A DNA stretch of 35,671 nt from Thermotogae bacterium. Lineage in GTDB: Bacteria; Hydrothermota; Hydrothermia; LBFQ01. The notes beneath the pieces were generated by a model that saw only the letters and a list, made by a program, of their open reading frames with translations, made no database searches and was not told where the DNA came from. The DNA lies in contig JAADCS010000061.1 of the NCBI GenBank assembly GCA_013154295.1, positions 1 to 35,671 on the forward strand, given 5' to 3'. How positions within the stretch are numbered: position 1 is the first letter of the stretch; the number at the start of each line of letters is the position of its first letter. The translations under genes and the position numbers were made by a program. This document shows, in pieces, positions 861 through 21,974 of the stretch.

Positions 861-1736
861 TTACCACCACCTAAAAAAGGACAGATCCAATTTTAAGAAG
901 CTTAAGAGAATTATCAACACGTAGATTAATCCGCTCAAAAGGATATACGGATCACTTAAAAGATCATCCGAAGGCTCACCCTTCCGCAAGTTATGAGTGA
1001 TATGGTAGTACCTAAAGATACCAAAAACCACTACAGGGACCGTTAAAACCATAACCATATCCCTTTTCTCTATCGTGTAGAGCGTATAGACAACCAGTGT
1101 CAGCGTAGCGGAAATATTCATTATCTGGTCAAGATAGTAGATGCTGTAATATCTTAAAGAATCTCTGTGAACACTCCCTTTCTTTCCCAAAAGAAGAAGC
1201 TCATATCTTCGTTTGCCTATGGCCAGAAAAAGCGCTAGGAAAAAAACGGTGAGAAAAAGGTAGATCGAGACCGGAACGCCCACAGCTACAGCCCCAGCTA
1301 CGACCCTCAACACGAAACCGATGGATATGGAGAACACATCAAAGAGCTGTAACCTCTTCAAGAAAAGAGTATAGGCGATATTGTTCAAAACATAAAGTAA
1401 AATAACCCCTCCAAACATCCATCCCAAAGGCCAACTCAAAACCAAAGCCAAAAGCAACAGCGTTACACCCACGGAAATTGCAAAACGTATATCAACCTTC
1501 CCTGAAGGGAGCGGTCGGAAACGTTTTATGGGATGTTCCTTGTCTCTTTCAAGATCCCTTATATCGTTGAAAATGTATATGGCCGAGGATACTACGCAAA
1601 AGGCTAAAAAGGCTATAAGGGCGTTCCATATATTGGTCAAAAGCCATTCCGTAGAACGGGCTGCAAAAAGAAAAGGCACAAAAACGAGGACGTTCTTAAC
1701 CCACTGATGGAGACGTAGAAGACGCAAAATAGACAT
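861..1736 (-). CDS. UbiA-family prenyltransferase, decaprenyl-phosphate phosphoribosyltransferase-like
   Basis: A 292-residue integral membrane protein with about eight hydrophobic segments. It begins MSILRLLRLHQWVKNVLVF, and the RxHQWxKN opening is typical of the phosphoribosyl-polyprenol (DPPR synthase, Rv3806c-like) branch of UbiA. The first Asp-rich motif NDIRDLERDKEHPIKRFRP follows at about residues 64-82 and binds Mg2+ and diphosphate. In that branch a phosphoribosyl group from PRPP is transferred to polyprenyl phosphate, giving a lipid-linked pentose donor for surface polysaccharide. A longer frame opens upstream to 1874, but it overlaps the divergent nuoL start and adds non-hydrophobic sequence, so the ATG at 1736 is preferred. 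A weak -10 (TAAACT, 1744-1749) sits 7 bases ahead. Other UbiA substrates, including archaeal-lipid DGGGP synthase, cannot be excluded from sequence alone. Confidence 0.8.
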   Translation of the reverse strand: MSILRLLRLHQWVKNVLVFVPFLFAARSTEWLLTNIWNALIAFLAFCVVSSAIYIFNDIRDLERDKEHPIKRFRPLPSGKVDIRFAISVGVTLLLLALVLSWPLGWMFGGVILLYVLNNIAYTLFLKRLQLFDVFSISIGFVLRVVAGAVAVGVPVSIYLFLTVFFLALFLAIGKRRYELLLLGKKGSVHRDSLRYYSIYYLDQIMNISATLTLVVYTLYTIEKRDMVMVLTVPVVVFGIFRYYHITHNLRKGEPSDDLLSDPYILLSGLIYVLIILLSFLKLDLSFFRWW

Positions 1737-1815
1737 GGTGCGGAGTTTAAGGTGGTACAGGCTGCATAAGGGAGCGTGTTTCATCACTTTCTTAAGTTGT
1801 CTAGCACATCTCCTG

Positions 1816-1821
1816 TAGAAT
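1816..1821 (+). promoter_or_regulatory. -10 element TAGAAT, leaderless start of nuoL
   Basis: TAGAAT 7 bases before the nuoL ATG at 1829. There is no SD sequence in the gap and no clear -35 at 16-18 bases. Confidence 0.6.
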
Positions 1822-1828
1822 ATCGGCC

Positions 1829-3736
1829 ATGACCACGATAGACCTGTTGGTTTACGTAACCGTGGGAGCACCACTCCTGGGCTTTATTATCAATGGGCTG
1901 TTTGGAAGAAATTTGGGTAAGCTGCCCGGCTGGATAGCTACGCTGATGTTAGCCATCTCTGCCACATCCGGAGGTTATTTAGCCTACAAAGCTCTGTTTG
2001 AGCATCTACACATCAGCAGAGATATATACACGTGGGTGGCCGTGGGTGACCTACACATTCCCGTAGGCTACCTGATAGATCCCCTAACTGGTGTGATGCT
2101 TTTCGTAGTTACTTTTGTCTCCCTTTGGATACATCTGTATTCCATAGGTTATATGGCCCACGATAAGGGATACTGGCGTTACTTCGCCTATCTCAACATG
2201 TTCGTATTCTTCATGCTGTTGCTGGTTTTGGGAAACAACTTCCTCATGACCTTCGTGGGGTGGGAGGGTGTAGGTTTGGCCTCCTACCTCCTCATAGGTT
2301 TCTGGTACTTCAACGATGCCCCCCGTCAGGCGGGTATGAAGGCTTTTGTAGTCAACCGTATAGGAGACGCCGGTTTCCTATTGGGCATGTTTCTCATTTT
2401 CACCCTCTTTGGCTCTCTCAAGTACGAGGAAGTTTTTGCGGCTGTCCTTCAAAATAAGGAAGTGATGGCCTTCTTTATAGCTTTAGCCGGTGTGTTGTTT
2501 TTCATCGCTGCCACCGGTAAATCGGCCCAGATACCGCTCTACGTGTGGTTGCCCGACGCCATGGAGGGTCCCACCCCAGTATCCGCCCTAATACACGCCG
2601 CCACGATGGTGACCGCCGGTGTCTATCTCGTCGCCCGCGCCTCGGCCATTTATTCCTCCGTCGTAGACGTCCCCATCATCTTTGGCCTCTCTGCTCCCAT
2701 GCTGGTTGCTCTCATAGGAGCCTTAACAGCCTTCTTCGCTGCAACAATGGCCCTGGTCAATAACGACCTGAAACGCATACTGGCTTTCTCCACCATCTCT
2801 CAGCTAGGGTACATGTTCGCGGCAGCTGGCATGCTAGGGTACGCCGCCGCCGTTTTCCACCTTTACACACACGCCTTCTTCAAAGCTCTCCTGTTCCTGA
2901 CGGCTGGCTCCGTGATGCACGCTATGCATGACGTTCTAGATATCCAGAGGATGGGAGGGCTGTGGAAGAAACTCCCCTGGACGGGTCTTTTTATGCTTAT
3001 AGGTGGTTTAGCCTTGGCTGCCATCCCTCCGTTCTCCGGCTTTTTCTCCAAGGATGAGATCCTCATAGCTGTGATGAAGAATCAGTTCATCTTCTGGTTG
3101 TTGGTTATAACCGCTTTTATGACCGCCTTCTACATGTTCCGTATGTTCTTTATGGTCTTTTTGGGCAACCCCCGTGACGAACATCTCTACGAACATGCCC
3201 ATGAGAGTCCTCCGATAATGCTCATACCCATGGGAATTTTGGCCATAGGTTCGGTGGTAGTAGGTTTAGTGGGATTGGGTGGTGAGCATAGCCTCTGGGC
3301 CAAAATGCTCCATGGAGTCTTCGTCCTACCGGAGCACGGCCATCATGCTGTCCACTCCTCTTTACCCATGATATTGGGCATAGTGGCTGGTGTCTTAGGT
3401 ATAGGCTTGGCCTACGTAATGTACGTCACCCTTTGGCCCTCCCTACCCTTCATCATGGCCCGCGTCTTCAGGCCCATATATGTGGTCCTATACAACCGCT
3501 ATTGGGTTGATGAGATATACGAGGCCCTCATAGTCAAACCTCTCTGGATCATATCCCGCTGGATCCTCTTCGTGGGGGTAGATAGGGTTCTGATAGATGG
3601 AAGCGTCAACGCCTTGGCTTGGATCTCCTACGGTTTTGGAACCTTCTTCCGTAAATTGCAAACCGGTAACGTACGCACCTACGCCCTCTGGATGGTCCTT
3701 GGCCTTCTAATACTGGTGGGAGTTTTGGCCCTTTAA
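1829..3736 (+). CDS. nuoL: NADH-quinone oxidoreductase subunit L
   Basis: A 635-residue multipass subunit of complex I, in the distal proton-pumping antiporter-like arm. The family signature is complete: MTFVGWEGVGLASYLLIGFW, the helix with VWLPDAMEGPTPVSALIHAA, LKRILAFSTISQLGYMF, then IPPFSGFFSKDEIL before the lateral helix region and the final membrane helix. Length is normal for NuoL. It is the first gene of a unit with tmk, which starts one base after its TAA, and thiC. No other nuo gene adjoins it; nuoD is 20 kb away with its own promoter. Confidence 0.95.
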   Translation: MTTIDLLVYVTVGAPLLGFIINGLFGRNLGKLPGWIATLMLAISATSGGYLAYKALFEHLHISRDIYTWVAVGDLHIPVGYLIDPLTGVMLFVVTFVSLWIHLYSIGYMAHDKGYWRYFAYLNMFVFFMLLLVLGNNFLMTFVGWEGVGLASYLLIGFWYFNDAPRQAGMKAFVVNRIGDAGFLLGMFLIFTLFGSLKYEEVFAAVLQNKEVMAFFIALAGVLFFIAATGKSAQIPLYVWLPDAMEGPTPVSALIHAATMVTAGVYLVARASAIYSSVVDVPIIFGLSAPMLVALIGALTAFFAATMALVNNDLKRILAFSTISQLGYMFAAAGMLGYAAAVFHLYTHAFFKALLFLTAGSVMHAMHDVLDIQRMGGLWKKLPWTGLFMLIGGLALAAIPPFSGFFSKDEILIAVMKNQFIFWLLVITAFMTAFYMFRMFFMVFLGNPRDEHLYEHAHESPPIMLIPMGILAIGSVVVGLVGLGGEHSLWAKMLHGVFVLPEHGHHAVHSSLPMILGIVAGVLGIGLAYVMYVTLWPSLPFIMARVFRPIYVVLYNRYWVDEIYEALIVKPLWIISRWILFVGVDRVLIDGSVNALAWISYGFGTFFRKLQTGNVRTYALWMVLGLLILVGVLAL

Positions 3737-5748: not shown

Positions 5749-6609
5749 ATAAGCGTAAAGACGTTTGAGGTGCTCCTGTAACAGAAAGGACGGGTGAGGG
5801 ATCTTGAGGATGAAGTTCCGTTGGGGAAGTTGCATAAGGTATTTTTTTAAATCCTCTCTTGTGTTGAAGACCCTTCCCAACCCTACCTTCTCCACTAACT
5901 CCGCTGCTCCCCCTGCCCTCTTAAGAACCAGAACCGGTGTTCCGGAGGACATGGCCTCCAGGGTAACATAGGAGAATGATTCATAGCGGGAAGTTACGAG
6001 AAGGAAAGTACTGTCACGATAGAGACGTTTTAGAGCAACCCAGCTCAACCGCCCTAAATACTCCACCCTCCGGGATTTTCCGGAAGTCACCCCTACAACC
6101 ACGAACCTCCACCCTGATAACTCCTCCGCCAACCCCTCAAACGTATCCAAGCCTTTTATCCATGCTTCTCTTCCAACCCACAGTAAAGTCCTGCCTTCAA
6201 CTCGCACTTTTTGAGGAAACCCCTCTTCAAAAGGAAGGTAGATGACCTTTCCCTTCACACCGTAGAGCCTACGGGCAGTTTCAGCCATTGAAAAACTTGG
6301 AAACAGTATTTTTTCAAAATTTTGTAAATATCTTCCAAATTGGATAAATTTTACTAAATATTTTGGATTAAATTCAATTTTACCCTCAAGCATCCTTCTG
6401 CTGACAGATCTAAGACCGTGCATGAAGAAAAACTTTCGGTTGGGAAGCTTCACGACCTCCGGTACAACAGCGTGTAAGAGCAAACTCCACCCTTTTGGGG
6501 GAAGGCCATCTCTCTCAACTTCCCACACTTTTTCACCCACCGACTCAAGTAGATCCAAGTAGCGACCTATACCCCCTGCCCTTCGCTTTACCACATGAAG
6601 GAGTTTCAC
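5737..6609 (-). CDS. Family 4-type glycosyltransferase
   Basis: 290 residues. The C-terminal Rossmann domain has the GT4 signature: [15 protein letters not shown], then [20 protein letters not shown] and a following GGAAELVE, the donor-binding E-x7-E region. The N-terminal half is short for a GT4. It is the last gene of the six-gene minus-strand operon; its GTG start overlaps the lptB stop (GTGA). Together with lptB and the acyltransferase upstream, this suggests assembly of a surface glycolipid, but the sugar donor and acceptor cannot be read from the sequence. A low-GC patch lies at about 6300-6390. Confidence 0.85.
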
Positions 6610-7385
6610 ATCCTAAACTTCTCACCCAAATAGAGTTTGCGAGCCTCCGGGTTGTTTATGAGGAATTCGGTGGTACCTTCAAGGAGTATGCGACCCTCGT
6701 AAATGATATAGGCCCTGTCGGTGATCTCCAGCGTTTCACGGACGTTGTGGTCGGTTATTATCACACCGATGTTCATATCCTTGAGTCTTAGAACCATCTC
6801 TTGAATCTCCTCGCGGGTTTTGGGATCAACGGCAGCGAAGGGTTCATCTAAGAGTAGAAACTTCGGTTCTAACACTATCGCCCTGGCCACTTCCACCCTC
6901 CTCCTTTCACCTCCCGAAAGCTGTATACCCAAACTCTTAACCACCTTTTTCAGGTTCAACATATCTACCACCTCTTCGGTTCTCCTTCGCGCCTCCTTGC
7001 GTGGATATCCTCTCATTTCCAAAACACCGTATATGTTGTCCCAAACCGAAAGATACCTAAAAACAGAAGGTTCTTGGGGTAGATAGCCTATACCCATCCT
7101 GGCTCTCTTAAACATCGGAAGCTTAGTTATCTCCTTATCGTCGAGGAACACCTTACCGGAGTTGGGACGTATGGCGCCCACGATCATGTAAAAGGTAGTG
7201 GTCTTGCCAGCACCGTTAGGGCCTAAAAGTCCTACTATCTCACCCTGTCTAACCTCCAAACTGACTTCATTCACCACTCTGCGCTTGCGGTAGATCTTTA
7301 CCAGCTTGTCCGTCCTAAGTACGGAAGACACGGGAGTGATTTTACGGTGGATCTCAAACGTCCAGATAGTGAAAGGCTCTATCAT
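6606..7385 (-). CDS. lptB: LPS export ABC transporter ATP-binding protein
   Basis: A 259-residue ABC ATPase that powers LptFG extraction of lipopolysaccharide from the inner membrane. Walker A is GPNGAGKTT, the signature is LSGGERRRVEVARA, and Walker B is FLLLDEPFAAVDP. The LptB-typical stretches TTTFYMIVGAIRP and YLPQEPSVFRYLSVWDNIYG are present. The start is uncertain: the ATG at 7385 adds about 20 residues before the usual LptB beginning and overlaps the upstream gene by 32 bases, while an in-frame GTG near 7331 would give a canonical N-terminus. No lptA, lptC, lptF or lptG is in the window. Confidence 0.92.
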   Translation of the reverse strand: MIEPFTIWTFEIHRKITPVSSVLRTDKLVKIYRKRRVVNEVSLEVRQGEIVGLLGPNGAGKTTTFYMIVGAIRPNSGKVFLDDKEITKLPMFKRARMGIGYLPQEPSVFRYLSVWDNIYGVLEMRGYPRKEARRRTEEVVDMLNLKKVVKSLGIQLSGGERRRVEVARAIVLEPKFLLLDEPFAAVDPKTREEIQEMVLRLKDMNIGVIITDHNVRETLEITDRAYIIYEGRILLEGTTEFLINNPEARKLYLGEKFRM

Positions 7386-7941
7386 CCAGATCCTTCAAAA
7401 TCTCGGAGGCCTCCTCCGGTGACGAGGGATAGGCCTCTTCAACCAAAACTGCGATTGCTGAAAAGGGCATGGGAACCCGCATCTCATCCCACGAAGGCAA
7501 ATGGTAGGATGAAGAAAAGGCCACACCTACGAAGACCGTACGTACGTTGGCCCTTCTCATGAGTTCAAAGGTTCCTCTTTTAAAATGGAGTTTCGGCCCC
7601 CTTGGACCGTCGGGTGTTATGGCCACATTCCATCCTCCGCGCAAAGCACGCATAGCCTCCACTACTCCTCTAAGGGGTGACTTATACTGTGAAGACCATA
7701 TAACCTCTAACCCCTTGCGACGTACGACTTCTCCTATGAGCTGGCCGTCTCCACTGGGTGACACCATTACTTTTATAGGTGAGTTGCGAAAGATATGGGG
7801 AAGAGGAATAAGATTGCGGTGCCAGAAAAAGAAAAGTGTGGGCCTTCCAACCACGAAAACTTCACCTATTACCTTCACCCGTAGGGAGAGGCAAAGGGTG
7901 TCATATAAGCTAAAGAGGATCTTCCCCACACTAACGTCCAA
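7354..7941 (-). CDS. DUF374-type lysophospholipid/lipid A acyltransferase-like protein
   Basis: 195 residues, resembling the DUF374 acyltransferases often found beside Kdo/lipid A genes. Seen: LFFFWHRNLIPL, SPSGDGQLIGEVVRRKGLEV, the glycerolipid-binding block AITPDGPRGP, and the C-terminal WDEMRVPMPFS typical of the family. It probably transfers an acyl chain to a lipid A-like or phospholipid acceptor at the inner membrane. The TTG start overlaps the end of the upstream DUF4388-like gene, and its own end overlaps lptB, so the genes are co-translated. Confidence 0.82.
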   Translation of the reverse strand: MDVSVGKILFSLYDTLCLSLRVKVIGEVFVVGRPTLFFFWHRNLIPLPHIFRNSPIKVMVSPSGDGQLIGEVVRRKGLEVIWSSQYKSPLRGVVEAMRALRGGWNVAITPDGPRGPKLHFKRGTFELMRRANVRTVFVGVAFSSSYHLPSWDEMRVPMPFSAIAVLVEEAYPSSPEEASEILKDLDDRAFHYLDV

Positions 7942-10692: not shown

Positions 10693-11406
10693 TTGAGGGC
10701 AATAGTCGTAGTTCCCACCTACAATGAGGCTGAGAACATCTCGGATCTCATAGAAAGGTTGAGATCACTCAAGGTTTCGCCGGATGTTCTGGTTGTGGAT
10801 GACAACTCTCCAGATGGGACCTGGCGCATCGTTGGAGACATCTCCAAAAAGGATCCCCACGTGCATCTTTTAAGACGTCCCCAGAAGATGGGGTTGGGGT
10901 CAGCCTATGTGGAAGGTTTCAAATGGGCCTTAAAGGAAGGATACGATGTTGTGGTACAGATGGATGCGGATTTCTCTCACAATCCTGAAGACGTTCAAAA
11001 ACTCATAGATGCCCTTAAAGATTGTGACGTCGCCATAGGATCCAGGTACAGTAACGGTGTAAGCGTGGTCAACTGGCCTATAGGTCGCCTGTGTCTTTCC
11101 TATCTGGCCAACAGATATGCTCGCGCTTTCACAGGTGTCAAGATAAACGATCTTACAGGAGGCTTTAAAGCTTTTAGAAGGGAGGCACTGGAATCCTTGA
11201 ACCTGGATGAGATAAAATCCGACGGGTACGCCTTTCAGATAGAGGTCAACTTCTACCTGTGGATGAGAAGGTTCAAGATGTGTGAGATTCCCATAATCTT
11301 CGTGGAACGCCGTGCGGGCAAATCCAAGTTGAGCAAGAGTATAATTTGGGAGGCTTTCTGGTTAGTCTTGCGGTTGGCGGTCAGGAGGCTCGTGGGAAGG
11401 GTATGA
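10693..11406 (+). CDS. Dolichol/polyprenol-phosphate mannosyltransferase-like GT2
   Basis: 237 residues, GT2 family, Dpm1-like. Seen: VVPTYNEAENI at the start, VDDNSPDGTW (UDP/GDP-sugar binding), the DxD-type MDADFSH, GSRY, and the acceptor-loop region with GKSKLS. Such enzymes transfer a sugar from a nucleotide sugar to polyprenyl phosphate, giving a lipid-linked sugar donor. There is no C-terminal membrane segment, so it is the short soluble/peripheral Dpm1 form. The TTG start is chosen because MRAIVVVPTYNE is the natural N-terminus and a TATAAT precedes it by 7 bases. Its stop overlaps the start of the G1PDH gene (ATGA). Confidence 0.9.
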   Translation: MRAIVVVPTYNEAENISDLIERLRSLKVSPDVLVVDDNSPDGTWRIVGDISKKDPHVHLLRRPQKMGLGSAYVEGFKWALKEGYDVVVQMDADFSHNPEDVQKLIDALKDCDVAIGSRYSNGVSVVNWPIGRLCLSYLANRYARAFTGVKINDLTGGFKAFRREALESLNLDEIKSDGYAFQIEVNFYLWMRRFKMCEIPIIFVERRAGKSKLSKSIIWEAFWLVLRLAVRRLVGRV

Positions 11407-12353
11407 AGTTTTATAGGATCCTCAAGGTGGGTAGTGGTATCTTGGGGGAAGCTTTGAAAGAGCTCAAAAGTGAGTTTTTAGGGGGAAAATTCCTGGTATT
11501 TACGGGAGATGAAGGTTCCTTGAGGTATGGCGAAAAGGTAGCAGAAGTCTTAGATGGAGATCTGGTTATCGGCGATTCTCTTCCGCCTGATACACCCTAC
11601 GACGCCATAGTGGGTGTGGGGGGAGGTAGTGTTATAGATAGAGCCAAGGAGTGGGCCTTCATACGAAGTCTACCGTTCATCTCGATCCCAACTCTCATCT
11701 CCAGCGATGGGATAGCTTCGCCGGTAGCGGTCTTGGACGGTAAAAGTAGATTTCTAAGACTTCCGTTTGGTATAATAGTTGAACTGGAGATTATAGCTCT
11801 GGCTCCTCGCTGGAGTTTTTTGGCGGGTGTGGGCGACTTGGTTTCCAACCTTTCCGCCTCTTACGATTGGGATAGATTCCGTAGCTTCTCCAAGGAACCG
11901 TACGTCGCCGAGGCTTCCATGTTGGCCAAGGTTTCGGCGATGTCGGTTGTAGGCGTCGATCCCCTCCACAACCCCGCTCCCCTCACCTGGGGTCTGATAT
12001 TGAGCGGTGTAGCTATGAACCTAGCCGGCTCGTCCCGTCCGGCCAGTGGGCCAGAACACAAGATAAGTCACGCCCTGGACCGCATAGGTTACGGTCAAAA
12101 ACATGGGATTCAGGTGGGTATATTCACCCCTCTCTTTTTGAAACTCAACGGTTATCCCAACTGGCACAAGGTCAGGGAGTATTTGATAGGGATAGGTCTT
12201 CCTCCATCGGTGCGCTTAAAAGAGGAGAAAGCCGTAGAAGTGTTTCGCTCCGCTTCTTTAACCCGACCCCATCGTTACACCGTATTGGAGAGGTTGGGTT
12301 GGGAGAGGGTTCTGCGCGAGGCTGTGGAGTTAGGTTTCGTAGAACTGGTTTAG
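11403..12353 (+). CDS. sn-glycerol-1-phosphate dehydrogenase (archaeal type)
   Basis: 316 residues from the ATG at 11403, which overlaps the upstream TGA. It reduces dihydroxyacetone phosphate to sn-glycerol-1-phosphate with NAD(P)H, the step that sets archaeal lipid stereochemistry. Seen: the nucleotide motif VGVGGGSVID, the G1PDH hallmark ISIPTLISSDGIASP at about residues 98-112, and candidate metal ligands in GDLVSN, GPEHKISHALD and QKHGIQVG. Related glycerol dehydrogenase and dehydroquinate synthase lack the SSDGIASP block. The bacterial AraM branch shares it, so the product is G1P but the lipid made from it is unknown. The TAG stop doubles as part of the -10 for the next gene. Confidence 0.88.
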   Translation: MKFYRILKVGSGILGEALKELKSEFLGGKFLVFTGDEGSLRYGEKVAEVLDGDLVIGDSLPPDTPYDAIVGVGGGSVIDRAKEWAFIRSLPFISIPTLISSDGIASPVAVLDGKSRFLRLPFGIIVELEIIALAPRWSFLAGVGDLVSNLSASYDWDRFRSFSKEPYVAEASMLAKVSAMSVVGVDPLHNPAPLTWGLILSGVAMNLAGSSRPASGPEHKISHALDRIGYGQKHGIQVGIFTPLFLKLNGYPNWHKVREYLIGIGLPPSVRLKEEKAVEVFRSASLTRPHRYTVLERLGWERVLREAVELGFVELV

Positions 12354-14363: not shown

Positions 14364-14392
14364 TTTACAAATATGTGTTACCCCCGTATAAT
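14364..14392 (+). promoter_or_regulatory. Sigma-70-type promoter of the porin gene
   Basis: TTTACA at 14364-14369, a 17-base spacer, and a perfect TATAAT at 14387-14392. The ATG follows 9 bases later at 14402, so the predicted transcript starts within a few bases of the ATG. It is the clearest complete promoter in the window. Confidence 0.8.
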
Positions 14393-14401
14393 ATCTTCGT
14401 C

Positions 14402-17137
14402 ATGTTAGGCTTAGCAACTTTGTTAATTGGATATGGGCCCTCGCACTACACCCTGCAAGGGGCAAGGCGCACCATAAATGCCTTGGGGCCCAACTACTAC
14501 AACGGCGCATACCAGGGAGATTTCGGTTTCATAATCAACTTCTTCAGCATAAACGGCTTTATCAACACCAACATCACGTACGAAGATGTCTCCGCAGGCA
14601 ACCAGCAATACCAGGACGGTTACTTCTCCTTCGTAGATCACTTCGGTTTGGGCATAGGCTTCAAGTACCTTGAGATGGCCATAGGTGGCTCCTACTTCTT
14701 TGAAGCTTGGGACAAAGTGGCATATGCGGGTCGCCAGTACACCGACAACGTTCACTCCCATGGTCCCGGTGATGCCTACGTGGCCGGTAAGATAATGCTC
14801 CCCTTCCACGGTGAGAAGATGTCCGTAAGCTTAGGAGGATCCTTCATATACACCTTCCCACGTGTCTTCGATATCCAGATAGCCCATGAGCGAGATGTGA
14901 CCAAAGACAACTACGTATCCGATTCACGTGGTTGGTATCAGAAAGGTGGAGTATTTCGTACCTTCACCTACGGTGGCCCTTCTTGGGACGCTAGGTTTCT
15001 CTTTACGTTCCTACCCAACAACAAGTACATAGAGCTTAACGTAAACGTTGGTTACTCCCCTCGTAACCCCGACGATCAGGACGATGACGTTACACTGCTG
15101 GGATCCTCGCTGCTCTTCCATCTGAACTCCTTCCATCCCTTCTTTGAGGTAATGCTTGAGGACTGGAGTAAAGGAAGGGACAAGTACGGGGATTCTCCTC
15201 TCTACCTGACCGGTGGTTTTAACATAGAGACTGGCAGGGGAGTGATGTGGTCCTTCGGAATTGAGAAACTGCTGTGGTACGACGGCTCCACCATCCGATC
15301 CCAGCGGGAAGGGGCTCCTGACCTTCCAGAGTATGTAAAGGTCGATCCCGATGCGCCGGCGGAACACAGTACCAACATCCTGACCAAACCCAACTGGTGG
15401 TTCATAACGTGGAACCCACAGGTAGGAGTATGGCTCGCTTTGAGCTACACCTTTGTACCTCCCTACGAGAAGAAACCGGAGAAGGAAAAACCCAAGGTTA
15501 AACCTACCTACATAGCGGGTGTCGTTATGGATGCCCAAACCCAAAAGATGATAGGCGGAGCCAAGGTAACCCTCAAGGAGAAGGACATATCGGTAGTAAC
15601 AGGCGACGATGGGGCCTACAAGTTCGAGAACCTTGAGCCTGGCTCTTATACTATCAGGGTCGAGGCTCCGGGCTACACTTCCCAGAGTCAGGTAATAGAT
15701 TTGAAAGCAGGTCAGCCGGTTATAAAGAACTTTGAGCTTGTACCAGCCAAGGCTTATGCCATCATAGGTGTGGTATACGATAAAGCCACCAACGCTCCCA
15801 TAGGTGGTGCCAAGGTGCGTATAAAGGAGACGGGTGATTCCACCATAACTCAGGACGATGGAGCCTACCGTTTCTCGAACGTTCCTCCAGGCACCTACAC
15901 CTTGATCTTCACGGCTCCCGGTTATGAGGCTATCTCCATCGCGGTGAGCGTTGAAAGTGGTTCCACCGTCAAGAATGCATACCTTTCCAAAGCTGAACAG
16001 GCCCAAAAGGTCCAGAAGGTCGAAAAGCCCAAAGTAGGTTCCATAATAGGTGTAGTACAAGATGCAAAGACCAACATGCCCCTATCCGACGTCCAGATAA
16101 TCGTTAAGGAAAAGGGTATCACCTACACCACCGATCAGACCGGTGCCTTCAGGTTCGACAGCCTCCCAGAGGGTAGCTATACCCTGTCCTTCTCTAAAGA
16201 CGGTTACGTGGCGCGTACCAGGATAGTTACCGTCAAAGCTGGATCCCCTACCAACCTTAACATCTCCCTATCCCCCGTGGAGAAGAAGGTGGGAACCCTT
16301 TTGGGTAAGGTCATAGATAAGGAGAGCGGAAACCCCATCGCTGGAGCTGTGGTGTCCGTTGACGATATGGGTTCAACTCAAACCGATCAGAGCGGTCTAT
16401 ATCGTCTTGAGAACATTCCAGTAGGAGCCAGAACTGTAAAGGTGGCCGCACCAGGTTATAAGGAGGTGGTAGAGATCATAAAGATAGCTAAGGGTGACAA
16501 CGTGCGTAACTTCGCCTTAGAACCTATGGTCGTTAAAGGAAGCATCCTCATAACCGTTATAGATAAGGAGAAAAAGACACCCATAAGTGGAGCAACCATA
16601 ACCTTCGTAAATGGAAACTTCGGTCCTTATCAGACCGACGCCAACGGAACGGTGATGATCAAAGATATTCCCGCAGGTACCTATACCATAAAGGTCAGCT
16701 ACGGCAAGTATGCCCCTCAACAGAAGACAGTAGTGGTTGAGAAGGGTAAGGTTAAGGAAGTAGTCTTTGAGCTGGTCAAGAAGGGAACCGAGATTACGTT
16801 CCGTAACATATACTTTGATTTGAACAAAGCCACCTTGAGGCCCGATGCCGAACCCGCACTGAAGCAGATATGCCAGTTCCTCAAGGAAAACCCCACTGTG
16901 GTTATAGAGATACAGGGACATACGGATGAGCGCGGTCCTGCTTCCTACAACCTGCGACTCTCCCAGGCTCGTGCGGAAGCTGTACGTCAGTGGCTCATAA
17001 ACAACGGTTGTGCCACACCTGATCGTCTGATAGCCAAGGGCTACGGTGAGAGTATGCCCGTTATAAAGAACGCTAAGACCGAAGCCGAACACCAGCTCAA
17101 CCGTCGTGTCGTTATAAAGGTCATCGGAGAGAAGTAG
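14402..17137 (+). CDS. Outer-membrane porin-like protein with five CarboxypepD-type repeats and OmpA C-domain
   Basis: 911 residues. N-terminal about 345 residues: alternating aromatic strands like an outer-membrane beta-barrel. A Lys/Pro/Glu linker follows near 350-365. Then come five carboxypeptidase-regulatory-like beta-sandwich repeats of about 80 residues, beginning near bases 15509, 15758, 16039, 16297 and 16539. Each has a [GD]DGAYxFxNxxPGxYTxxxxAPGY-like core. The C-terminal OmpA domain (about 16795-17130) has IYFDLNKATLRPDA, IEIQGHTDERG, NLRLSQARAEAVRQWL and NRRV, so it should bind peptidoglycan. The signal peptide is very short and uncharged (MLGLATLLIGYG). A frame extends to 14375, but the promoter places the start at 14402. 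Probably an abundant envelope-linking protein, with its own promoter and terminator. Confidence 0.9.
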   Translation: MLGLATLLIGYGPSHYTLQGARRTINALGPNYYNGAYQGDFGFIINFFSINGFINTNITYEDVSAGNQQYQDGYFSFVDHFGLGIGFKYLEMAIGGSYFFEAWDKVAYAGRQYTDNVHSHGPGDAYVAGKIMLPFHGEKMSVSLGGSFIYTFPRVFDIQIAHERDVTKDNYVSDSRGWYQKGGVFRTFTYGGPSWDARFLFTFLPNNKYIELNVNVGYSPRNPDDQDDDVTLLGSSLLFHLNSFHPFFEVMLEDWSKGRDKYGDSPLYLTGGFNIETGRGVMWSFGIEKLLWYDGSTIRSQREGAPDLPEYVKVDPDAPAEHSTNILTKPNWWFITWNPQVGVWLALSYTFVPPYEKKPEKEKPKVKPTYIAGVVMDAQTQKMIGGAKVTLKEKDISVVTGDDGAYKFENLEPGSYTIRVEAPGYTSQSQVIDLKAGQPVIKNFELVPAKAYAIIGVVYDKATNAPIGGAKVRIKETGDSTITQDDGAYRFSNVPPGTYTLIFTAPGYEAISIAVSVESGSTVKNAYLSKAEQAQKVQKVEKPKVGSIIGVVQDAKTNMPLSDVQIIVKEKGITYTTDQTGAFRFDSLPEGSYTLSFSKDGYVARTRIVTVKAGSPTNLNISLSPVEKKVGTLLGKVIDKESGNPIAGAVVSVDDMGSTQTDQSGLYRLENIPVGARTVKVAAPGYKEVVEIIKIAKGDNVRNFALEPMVVKGSILITVIDKEKKTPISGATITFVNGNFGPYQTDANGTVMIKDIPAGTYTIKVSYGKYAPQQKTVVVEKGKVKEVVFELVKKGTEITFRNIYFDLNKATLRPDAEPALKQICQFLKENPTVVIEIQGHTDERGPASYNLRLSQARAEAVRQWLINNGCATPDRLIAKGYGESMPVIKNAKTEAEHQLNRRVVIKVIGEK

Positions 17138-20680: not shown

Positions 20681-21276
20681 TATACCTCCTGGCCTCGGTC
20701 CAGATAGCACGTCTCCAGTATGATGGTGGTGGAGATTGGTACAACGATCCGGAGTTGATACCCAACATCACCAAAGCCTTCAACGGACGGGTCGGCCCCA
20801 CCTTTGATACGGTCCAGGCGGTGGTGAAACCCTCTTCCTTTGAGATCTTCAACCATCCTATGCTTTTCATGACAGGTCACGGTAACGTTAGATTTAGCGA
20901 AGCTGACGCCAAGAACCTACGGCAATACCTTCTAAACGGAGGCTTTCTGTACGTGGATGATGATTACGGACTTGATGAGCACTTCCGTCGAGAGATAAAG
21001 AAGGTGTTTCCAGATTACGAACTGGTTGAACTTCCTCCGGACCACCCTATCTTTCACATCTTTTACGACATTCCGCTTCCCAAGGTGCATGAACACTATC
21101 CAGGTCCCCCAAAAGCCTATGGTATAGTCGTTCGGGGACGCCTCGTGTTACTCTACACGTGGAATTCCAACGTTTCGGATGGCTGGACCGACCGCTATGG
21201 CGATCCCCCTGAAATAAGGGAGAAGGCTATAAGAATGGGCATAAACATACTCATGTATGCTCTTGCAGGTATTTAG
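20677..21276 (+). CDS. DUF4159 protein, probably exported
   Basis: 199 residues. The family opening ARLQYDGGGDWYNDP follows a very short hydrophobic start (MIYLLASVQI), a possible minimal signal peptide. Further DUF4159 blocks: FMTGHGNVRFSEADAKNLRQ, GGFLYVDDDYG, FRREIKKVFPDYELVELPPD, HPIFHIFYDI, and LVLLYTWNSNVSDGW. In other bacteria DUF4159 often lies with MoxR/VWA or gliding-type gene clusters; its biochemical role is unknown. It overlaps the V4R-like gene by 4 bases and the convergent fabG by 4 bases. Confidence 0.82.
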   Translation: MIYLLASVQIARLQYDGGGDWYNDPELIPNITKAFNGRVGPTFDTVQAVVKPSSFEIFNHPMLFMTGHGNVRFSEADAKNLRQYLLNGGFLYVDDDYGLDEHFRREIKKVFPDYELVELPPDHPIFHIFYDIPLPKVHEHYPGPPKAYGIVVRGRLVLLYTWNSNVSDGWTDRYGDPPEIREKAIRMGINILMYALAGI

Positions 21277-21974
21277 ATCATTCCACCATCCACCACTATA
21301 ACCTGGCCGGTTATATAGGAGGCTCTATCTGACACCAAAAAGGCTATCACCTCAGCTACCTCCTCCGGTCTACCTGGTCGTTTTAAAGCTGTGGTTTCCA
21401 CGTACTTTTTCTTTATCTCCTCCGGTAGAGTCTCCGTCATCCTGGTCTCTATAAAGCCGGGAGCTACAGCGACCACCCTAAGGTTTCGGCTGCCCATCTC
21501 CTTGGCGAGAGACTTGGTAAAGGCCAGTAGGGCGGCCTTGGTCGAGGCGTAAGCCGTTTGCCAAGCGTTACCCACTATGCCGACGACTGAGGATACATTC
21601 ACTATAACGCCTCCTCTTCTCATGTACCGCATGGCCGCGCGGGAAAAATGAAAGGCAGAAAAAAGATTTACCCGGAAGATCCTCTCAAGGTCGGCTTCGG
21701 TGATACGTAATAGAGGTTTATCTAACGTCATACCGGCGTTGTTTACCAGAGCGTCGAGGCGTCCAAATCTATCGTAAGTCTCTTTCACTACCCGTGTGGC
21801 TACCTCTGGTGAGGATACATCCCCGGCTACTATGAGATCATCGGGAAACTCCCGTTTTAGATCCTCTCCTGGTTTGCGACTGACTAGAGTCAGTTCCCAC
21901 CCATCCCTCTTGAGAACCCGTGCGGTAGCCAGACCTATACCTCTACTTCCGCCCGTTATGATGCAAACTTTCAT
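21273..21974 (-). CDS. fabG: 3-oxoacyl-ACP reductase (short-chain dehydrogenase)
   Basis: 233 residues, classical SDR. It reduces 3-oxoacyl-ACP with NADPH in fatty-acid elongation. Seen: TGGSRGIGLATA at 7-18, NNAGMT, the catalytic Ser in VNVSSVVG, and YASTKAA with the Tyr-x-x-x-Lys pair. C-terminal SDRASYITGQVIVVDGG matches FabG. Other SDR substrates are possible, as it stands alone without fab genes. The ATG lies 6 bases after a TAGAAT. Confidence 0.88.
   Translation of the reverse strand: MKVCIITGGSRGIGLATARVLKRDGWELTLVSRKPGEDLKREFPDDLIVAGDVSSPEVATRVVKETYDRFGRLDALVNNAGMTLDKPLLRITEADLERIFRVNLFSAFHFSRAAMRYMRRGGVIVNVSSVVGIVGNAWQTAYASTKAALLAFTKSLAKEMGSRNLRVVAVAPGFIETRMTETLPEEIKKKYVETTALKRPGRPEEVAEVIAFLVSDRASYITGQVIVVDGGMI

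Follow-up and report, generated by a model that had tools for sequence, protein, structure and literature searches.

A glycerol-1-phosphate dehydrogenase-clade gene and candidate archaeal-type ether-lipid genes in a family of WOR-3 bacteria

We describe, in a family of WOR-3 bacteria (here f1), a gene for an sn-glycerol-1-phosphate dehydrogenase (G1PDH; EgsA/AraM)-clade protein that co-occurs with genes for GGGP synthase (GGGPS), a DGGGP synthase (DGGGPS)-type UbiA protein and geranylgeranyl reductase (GGR), alongside genes of the bacterial glycerol-3-phosphate (G3P) ester pathway. We put at about 70% the probability that the role of this G1PDH is to provide the glycerol-1-phosphate (G1P) from which archaeal-type ether lipids are built, in a cell where G3P ester lipids are formed as well. 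The membrane lipids of bacteria and archaea are generally regarded as differing in handedness, and an f1 bacterium may have the capacity for both. The best-studied candidates for mixed-membrane bacteria, the Cloacimonetes, are without a G1P-making enzyme. Family f1 has G1PDH together with two to three enzymes of the steps that follow and stands beside a sister family without most of them, offering a concrete gene set for testing mixed, mirror-image membranes.

Results

The gene lies in a stretch of 35,671 nucleotides (contig 158, hereafter the window) from the MAG of an uncultured WOR-3 bacterium (1.97 Mb, 92.9% complete, 6.1% contamination); coordinates are collected in Table 1. An earlier note on the window had reported a G1PDH hallmark in this gene, and both the exact reading frame and the motif ISIPTLISSDGIASP were recovered. 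The protein matches Pfam Fe-ADH_2 (1.6e-18), and its top NCBIfam model is that of G1PDH (PRK00843, 183 bits), compared with 43 bits for the glycerol dehydrogenase model; the PRK00843 cut-off of 413 is not reached, marking the protein as a clade member and not as an equivalog of archaeal EgsA. Sequence comparison with the PDB gave 3ce9, 5fb3 and 4rgq as the top entries. In an alignment of 28 G1PDHs including archaeal ones, the three predicted metal ligands are invariant, and the SRPASG.EH motif is conserved in the window protein. The ligands align by sequence to chain residues 181, 259 and 280 of 4rgq, which, once a tag that we take to be 33 residues long is subtracted, presumably are D148, H226 and H247, the zinc ligands of Methanocaldococcus jannaschii G1PDH. 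An AlphaFold model (pLDDT 95.2, pTM 0.92) is closest to the G1PDH structures 4rgq and 5fb3 (E about 1e-23 to 1e-22), with that of M. jannaschii nearest, ahead of Bacillus AraM (9h4x, E 3e-16) and glycerol dehydrogenases (E 1e-15).

In a tree of 86 rows with GldA as outgroup, GldA split from the G1PDHs, the window protein included, at 100/100 support. The f1 proteins group together at 100/100, on a long branch that arises among poorly resolved bacterial G1PDHs and not within the supported archaeal clade, and the tree holds no experimentally tested G1PDH close to the window protein. The earlier label "archaeal-type" is therefore correct for the enzyme family, but not as a placement inside the archaeal clade. 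Joining all WOR-3 G1PDHs into a single clade was weakly rejected (p-AU 0.028), so we claim neither single inheritance nor one transfer. Motif, metal ligands, modelled fold and tree together confirm the gene product as a G1PDH-clade enzyme with predicted catalysis, while the long branch and the score of 183 bits against a cut-off of 413 make some drift in substrate possible.

All eight f1 genomes carry G1PDH, the copies of the seven relatives being 54-75% identical to that of the window over matched stretches; one of them (G003) ends at a contig edge. In another relative (G007, contig 47; L136:7140-8321 and downstream), what looks like a frameshift or an in-frame TGA breaks the gene, which may reflect an assembly error or gene decay. 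Contamination as the origin of the window gene was rejected given the orthologues in 8/8 genomes and a similar G+C, and the key pathway genes can be regarded as safe despite the contamination of the MAG because relatives carry them.

Table 1. Coordinates of the genes and gene pairs discussed in the text (positions without a prefix refer to the window; C, contigs of the source genome; L, loci of the surveyed genomes).
Feature	Position	Strand	Details
UbiA-family protein, decaprenyl-phosphate phosphoribosyltransferase type	861..1874	-	NF008977 242 bits, cut-off 234
lptB, LPS export ATPase	6606..7385	-	TIGR04406 341 bits, cut-off 240
DUF374 protein, putative acyltransferase-like	7354..7941	-	PF04028 5e-20
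Dpm1-like family-2 glycosyltransferase (polyprenyl-phosphate sugar synthase type)	10693..11406	+	237 aa, TTG start, Pfam GT2 2.7e-34
Glycosyltransferase/G1PDH stop/start overlap	11403..11406	+	ATGA, 4 bases
G1PDH (EgsA/AraM)-clade protein	11403..12353	+	316 aa, ATG start, predicted metal ligands D145, H219, H234
FabG-like short-chain reductase (SDR)	21273..21974	-	TIGR01830 251 bits, below cut-off 298
GGGPS	C54:6839-7525		228 aa, 4.4e-32, above Pfam cut-off
DGGGPS-type UbiA (putative activity)	C115:6469-7260
GGR	C43:435-1649
GGR-GGGPS pairs	L197:5981-7877, L198:5018-6960, L199:1169-3065, L200:5052-6976, L202:5713-7609, L201:4702-6709
Nucleotidyltransferase/G1PDH-like pairs	L217:3611-5373, L218:5491-7217, L224:525-2266, L227:5667-7404, L243:3003-4804, L115, L068, L070, L044		adjacent or overlapping

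The earlier note had proposed looking in the same genome for a prenylglyceryl synthase and for G3P genes, and GGGPS, a DGGGPS-type UbiA, gpsA and plsY were all found; the absence of a prenylglyceryl synthase, which the note would have taken as a refutation, is thus not what the genome shows. The GGGPS gene sits between nuoN and trxB (neighbours read by eye). Its product retains the YLEAGSG and GGG phosphate-binding motifs and is nearest in the PDB to a GGGPS (4jej, 4e-48), as against 2e-6 for heptaprenylglyceryl phosphate synthase/PcrB. Among the six UbiA genes of the source genome, the one on contig 115 has DGGGP synthase 6m31 as its nearest PDB entry (9e-18) and orthologues in 8/8 f1 genomes. 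With a DGGGPS profile built from WOR-3 sequences only, archaeal DGGGPS genes scored 140-151 bits, and no other UbiA of the source genome exceeded 54 bits. The contig-115 protein falls below the NCBIfam prenyltransferase cut-offs, and a UbiA tree with paralogues, whose branches were too long, left it and them unseparated. On the strength of the sequence match to 6m31 and the profile, we assign it to the DGGGPS type, with putative activity. Two other UbiAs were rejected for this role: the top-scoring one in the genome (contig 25) is heme O synthase-like, and that of the window, which scores only 49 bits with the DGGGPS profile, belongs to the phosphoribosyltransferase type. Decaprenyl-phosphate phosphoribosyltransferase, an enzyme of polyprenyl-phosphate ribose formation, is best known from actinobacteria.

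GGR exceeds the TIGR02032 cut-off in 7/8 f1 genomes and is split over two contigs in the eighth; the catalytic domain is present in the f1 protein. No CarS scored above cut-off in f1, where matches were sub-threshold only. The candidate in the source genome was discarded as sub-threshold and located on a 3.3-kb contig with foreign-looking proteins. This contig (contig 123; L193) carries cdsA-like and dxr-like genes, its proteins are unlike those of the lineage as judged by eye, and it is perhaps part of the 6% contamination. A CdsA-type gene (PF01148) was found in the f1 genome G007. The archaeal-pathway genes of f1 are not clustered together.

On the bacterial side, gpsA and plsY are each present in 7/8 f1 genomes, both gaps falling in incomplete MAGs, and both are kept in the source genome. 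The bacterial setting that the earlier note had drawn from fabG, lptB and a DUF374 gene holds as well, with the first of these being a FabG-like SDR, and lptB leads one to expect an outer membrane. The window additionally encodes (14375-17137, + strand) a protein of 920 aa that has five or more carboxypeptidase-regulatory repeats and an OmpA domain at its C terminus; one resembling it is found near plsY in the sister genomes G002 and G004.

We then surveyed presence and absence across 60 WOR-3 genomes, 29 of which have G1PDH. GGGPS was found in 29/29 genomes with G1PDH and in 16/31 without it (Fisher p = 6e-6). DGGGPS, called at 130 bits or more (a cut set after inspecting the scores, which are bimodal), was found in 28/29 and 17/31, respectively (p = 1.5e-4). 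By family, the figures are 12/12 versus 7/13 for GGGPS and DGGGPS each (p = 0.01), a safer comparison because related genomes are not independent. GGGPS and DGGGPS also occur without G1PDH in several WOR-3 families, from which it follows that the synthases do not strictly depend on a G1PDH gene. In the four genomes of the sister family f2, neither G1PDH nor DGGGPS nor GGR was found, and a weak GGGPS is kept in two of the four. In six other WOR-3 genomes, drawn from several families, GGR adjoins GGGPS, often with an overlap.

Discussion

The leading reading of these data, a mixed membrane as the earlier note had suggested, draws on a genome that combines GGGPS, a DGGGPS-type UbiA and GGR with gpsA and plsY. 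In such a cell, the metal- and NAD(P)H-dependent G1PDH would convert dihydroxyacetone phosphate to G1P, GGGP synthase would form the first ether bond between G1P and geranylgeranyl diphosphate, and the UbiA-type DGGGP synthase would add the second. GGR could then saturate the chains, and the bacterial CdsA might make the CDP-activated lipid in place of CarS, a step we propose because CarS is missing. At the same time, gpsA would provide G3P and plsY would lead it into ester lipids, so that the membrane, should the predicted activities and stereochemistry apply and the products reach it, could be mixed. PlsY and PlsC are reported to accept both glycerol phosphate forms (Rieche et al., PMC13400652), and G1P could therefore also enter ester lipids in f1.

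An alternative that we consider unlikely is that G1P serves a glycan or phosphodiester, either after activation as CDP-sn-1-glycerol or a similar nucleotide-linked glycerol or by way of a polyprenyl-linked glycan, with the Dpm1-like enzyme of f1 taking part. This glycosyltransferase, whose best PDB match is dolichol monophosphate mannose synthase (5mlz, 5.7e-37; activity predicted), shares with G1PDH a 4-bp overlap that is kept in seven f1 genomes, as ATGA in the source genome and four of the same genus and as GTGA in two of a sister genus. The overlap reported by the earlier note is thus real. The suggestion that it ties G1P to a lipid-linked sugar pathway found no support, however: a Dpm1-like match occurs in 60/60 WOR-3 genomes irrespective of G1PDH, nearly all being full-length orthologues at 50-66% identity, and in unrelated neighbourhoods, for instance beside hflX (read by eye) in families f7 and f8. 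Since the gene is phylum-wide and placed differently elsewhere, the overlap is weak evidence for a shared pathway, and the simplest view is that of an operon layout specific to f1.

Further indications of such a use of G1P come from other lineages. In families f8, f10 and f11, the upstream gene overlapping G1PDH encodes a CTP-type nucleotidyltransferase of 236-239 aa, with LicC (1jyk) and inositol-phosphate cytidylyltransferase (IPCT, 2xme) as nearest PDB entries. The same pairing, usually overlapping, recurs in Clostridium sulfidigenes, another Clostridia MAG, a Melainabacteria MAG, a Bacillota MAG and a Streptomyces plasmid, where a CDP-alcohol phosphatidyltransferase also adjoins the pair. 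Some further G1PDHs of WOR-3 have glycosyltransferase or polysaccharide genes around them, as read from sequence. The pairing points to G1P being activated for polymer synthesis in the lineages that have it, possibly through a CDP-sn-1-glycerol pathway, and there may be a second use of G1P in WOR-3. For f1 itself, no nucleotidyltransferase of the paired type was found beside G1PDH, and matches elsewhere in its genomes were absent or no better than E 2e-6. The nesting of G1PDH within carriers of GGGPS and DGGGPS also argues against a glycan as its main outlet.

Less probable again is a monoprenyl pathway as in Bacillus, where AraM and PcrB act together (PMC9179154, PMC6431249): G1PDH and GGGPS would yield a prenylglycerol that is dephosphorylated (cf. 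heptaprenylglycerol in Bacillales), UbiA and GGR would serve quinones or dolichol-like carriers, and no archaeal-type phospholipid would arise. The source genome does have five other UbiAs to choose from. GGR-family enzymes are moreover known to reduce other isoprenoids too. Nevertheless, the contig-115 UbiA is nearest archaeal DGGGP synthase among proteins of solved structure and by profile, the GGGPS resembles the Flavobacterium/archaeal type and not Bacillus PcrB, and DGGGPS, GGR and G1PDH are jointly absent from sister family f2.

The same joint absence, namely that f2 is without G1PDH and likewise without the biosynthetic DGGGPS and GGR, weighs against a catabolic role, in which G1PDH would run in reverse and oxidise G1P scavenged from archaeal lipids. 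G1P-importing bacteria are known (PMC12718374), and a part in breaking down archaeal lipids has been suggested for the synthases of FCB bacteria (PMC6431249), but no transporter or lipase was recognised by eye beside the f1 gene, and we judge this role very improbable. That the window gene encodes a glycerol dehydrogenase or another Fe-ADH member unrelated to G1P is scarcely credible: the score below the archaeal equivalog cut-off and the deposition of the nearest PDB chain by sequence, 3ce9, as a "glycerol dehydrogenase" are outweighed by the tree split from GldA, the structure ranking and the conserved SRPASG.EH motif, and 3ce9 itself has the same G1PDH motifs.

Returning to ether-lipid synthesis as the preferred role in f1, WOR-3 as a whole might offer a natural set of cases on which to examine the lipid divide: among closely related families, the archaeal pathway would accompany the bacterial one in full, in part (with synthases but no G1PDH) or not at all. 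In this broader and more speculative picture, which we would sooner doubt than adopt, complete families would have heterochiral G1P/G3P membranes, and in several families G1PDH would also have been recruited to a different pathway, with G1P activated by a CTP-type nucleotidyltransferase (as CDP-sn-1-glycerol) for a surface polymer.

Comparison with known systems

Our literature search, in which coverage of subscription papers was mostly absent, returned no paper on archaeal-type lipids in WOR-3; candidate division WOR-3 is an entry in the survey table of Coleman et al. 2019 (PMC6431249), and the main text of Villanueva et al. 2020 (PMC7852524) does not mention it. At the level of the enzyme, the window G1PDH shares fold, metal-ligand residues and substrate-side motif with archaeal EgsA (M. 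jannaschii G1PDH, 4rgq), yet is only about 30% identical to it, shorter and not part of the archaeal clade. With Bacillus AraM/PcrB of the heptaprenylglyceryl phosphate pathway, f1 has in common a bacterial G1P enzyme and a GGGPS-family synthase. Bacillus AraM is, however, structurally more distant from the window protein, and f1 differs further in a synthase that similarity assigns to the C20 GGGPS type and in having a DGGGPS-type gene as well.

G1PDH, GGGPS and DGGGPS have been listed together for a few bacterial groups, including Fibrobacteres (Chitinispirillum), Firmicutes and Streptomyces (Coleman et al. 2019, PMC6431249), which are like f1 in holding all three core genes in one bacterium. 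The Fibrobacteres belong to a different phylum, and their G1PDHs fall in another part of our tree. Similar in gene content are FCB bacteria with GGGPS and DGGGPS, for which the missing G1PDH of Cloacimonetes was named an open point (Villanueva et al. 2020, PMC7852524). Candidatus Cloacimonetes and other FCB members resemble f1 in combining GGGPS, DGGGPS and GGR with gpsA and pls genes, and CdsA is assumed to stand in for the absent CarS (PMC7852524). In contrast to f1, the Cloacimonetes MAGs are without G1PDH, and their GGGPS adjoins DGGGPS, whereas the two are unlinked in f1 (PMC7852524). Archaeal lipid genes in bacteria are hence already known from Cloacimonetes and Fibrobacteres, and what f1 adds is the G1P-making step that Cloacimonetes lack.
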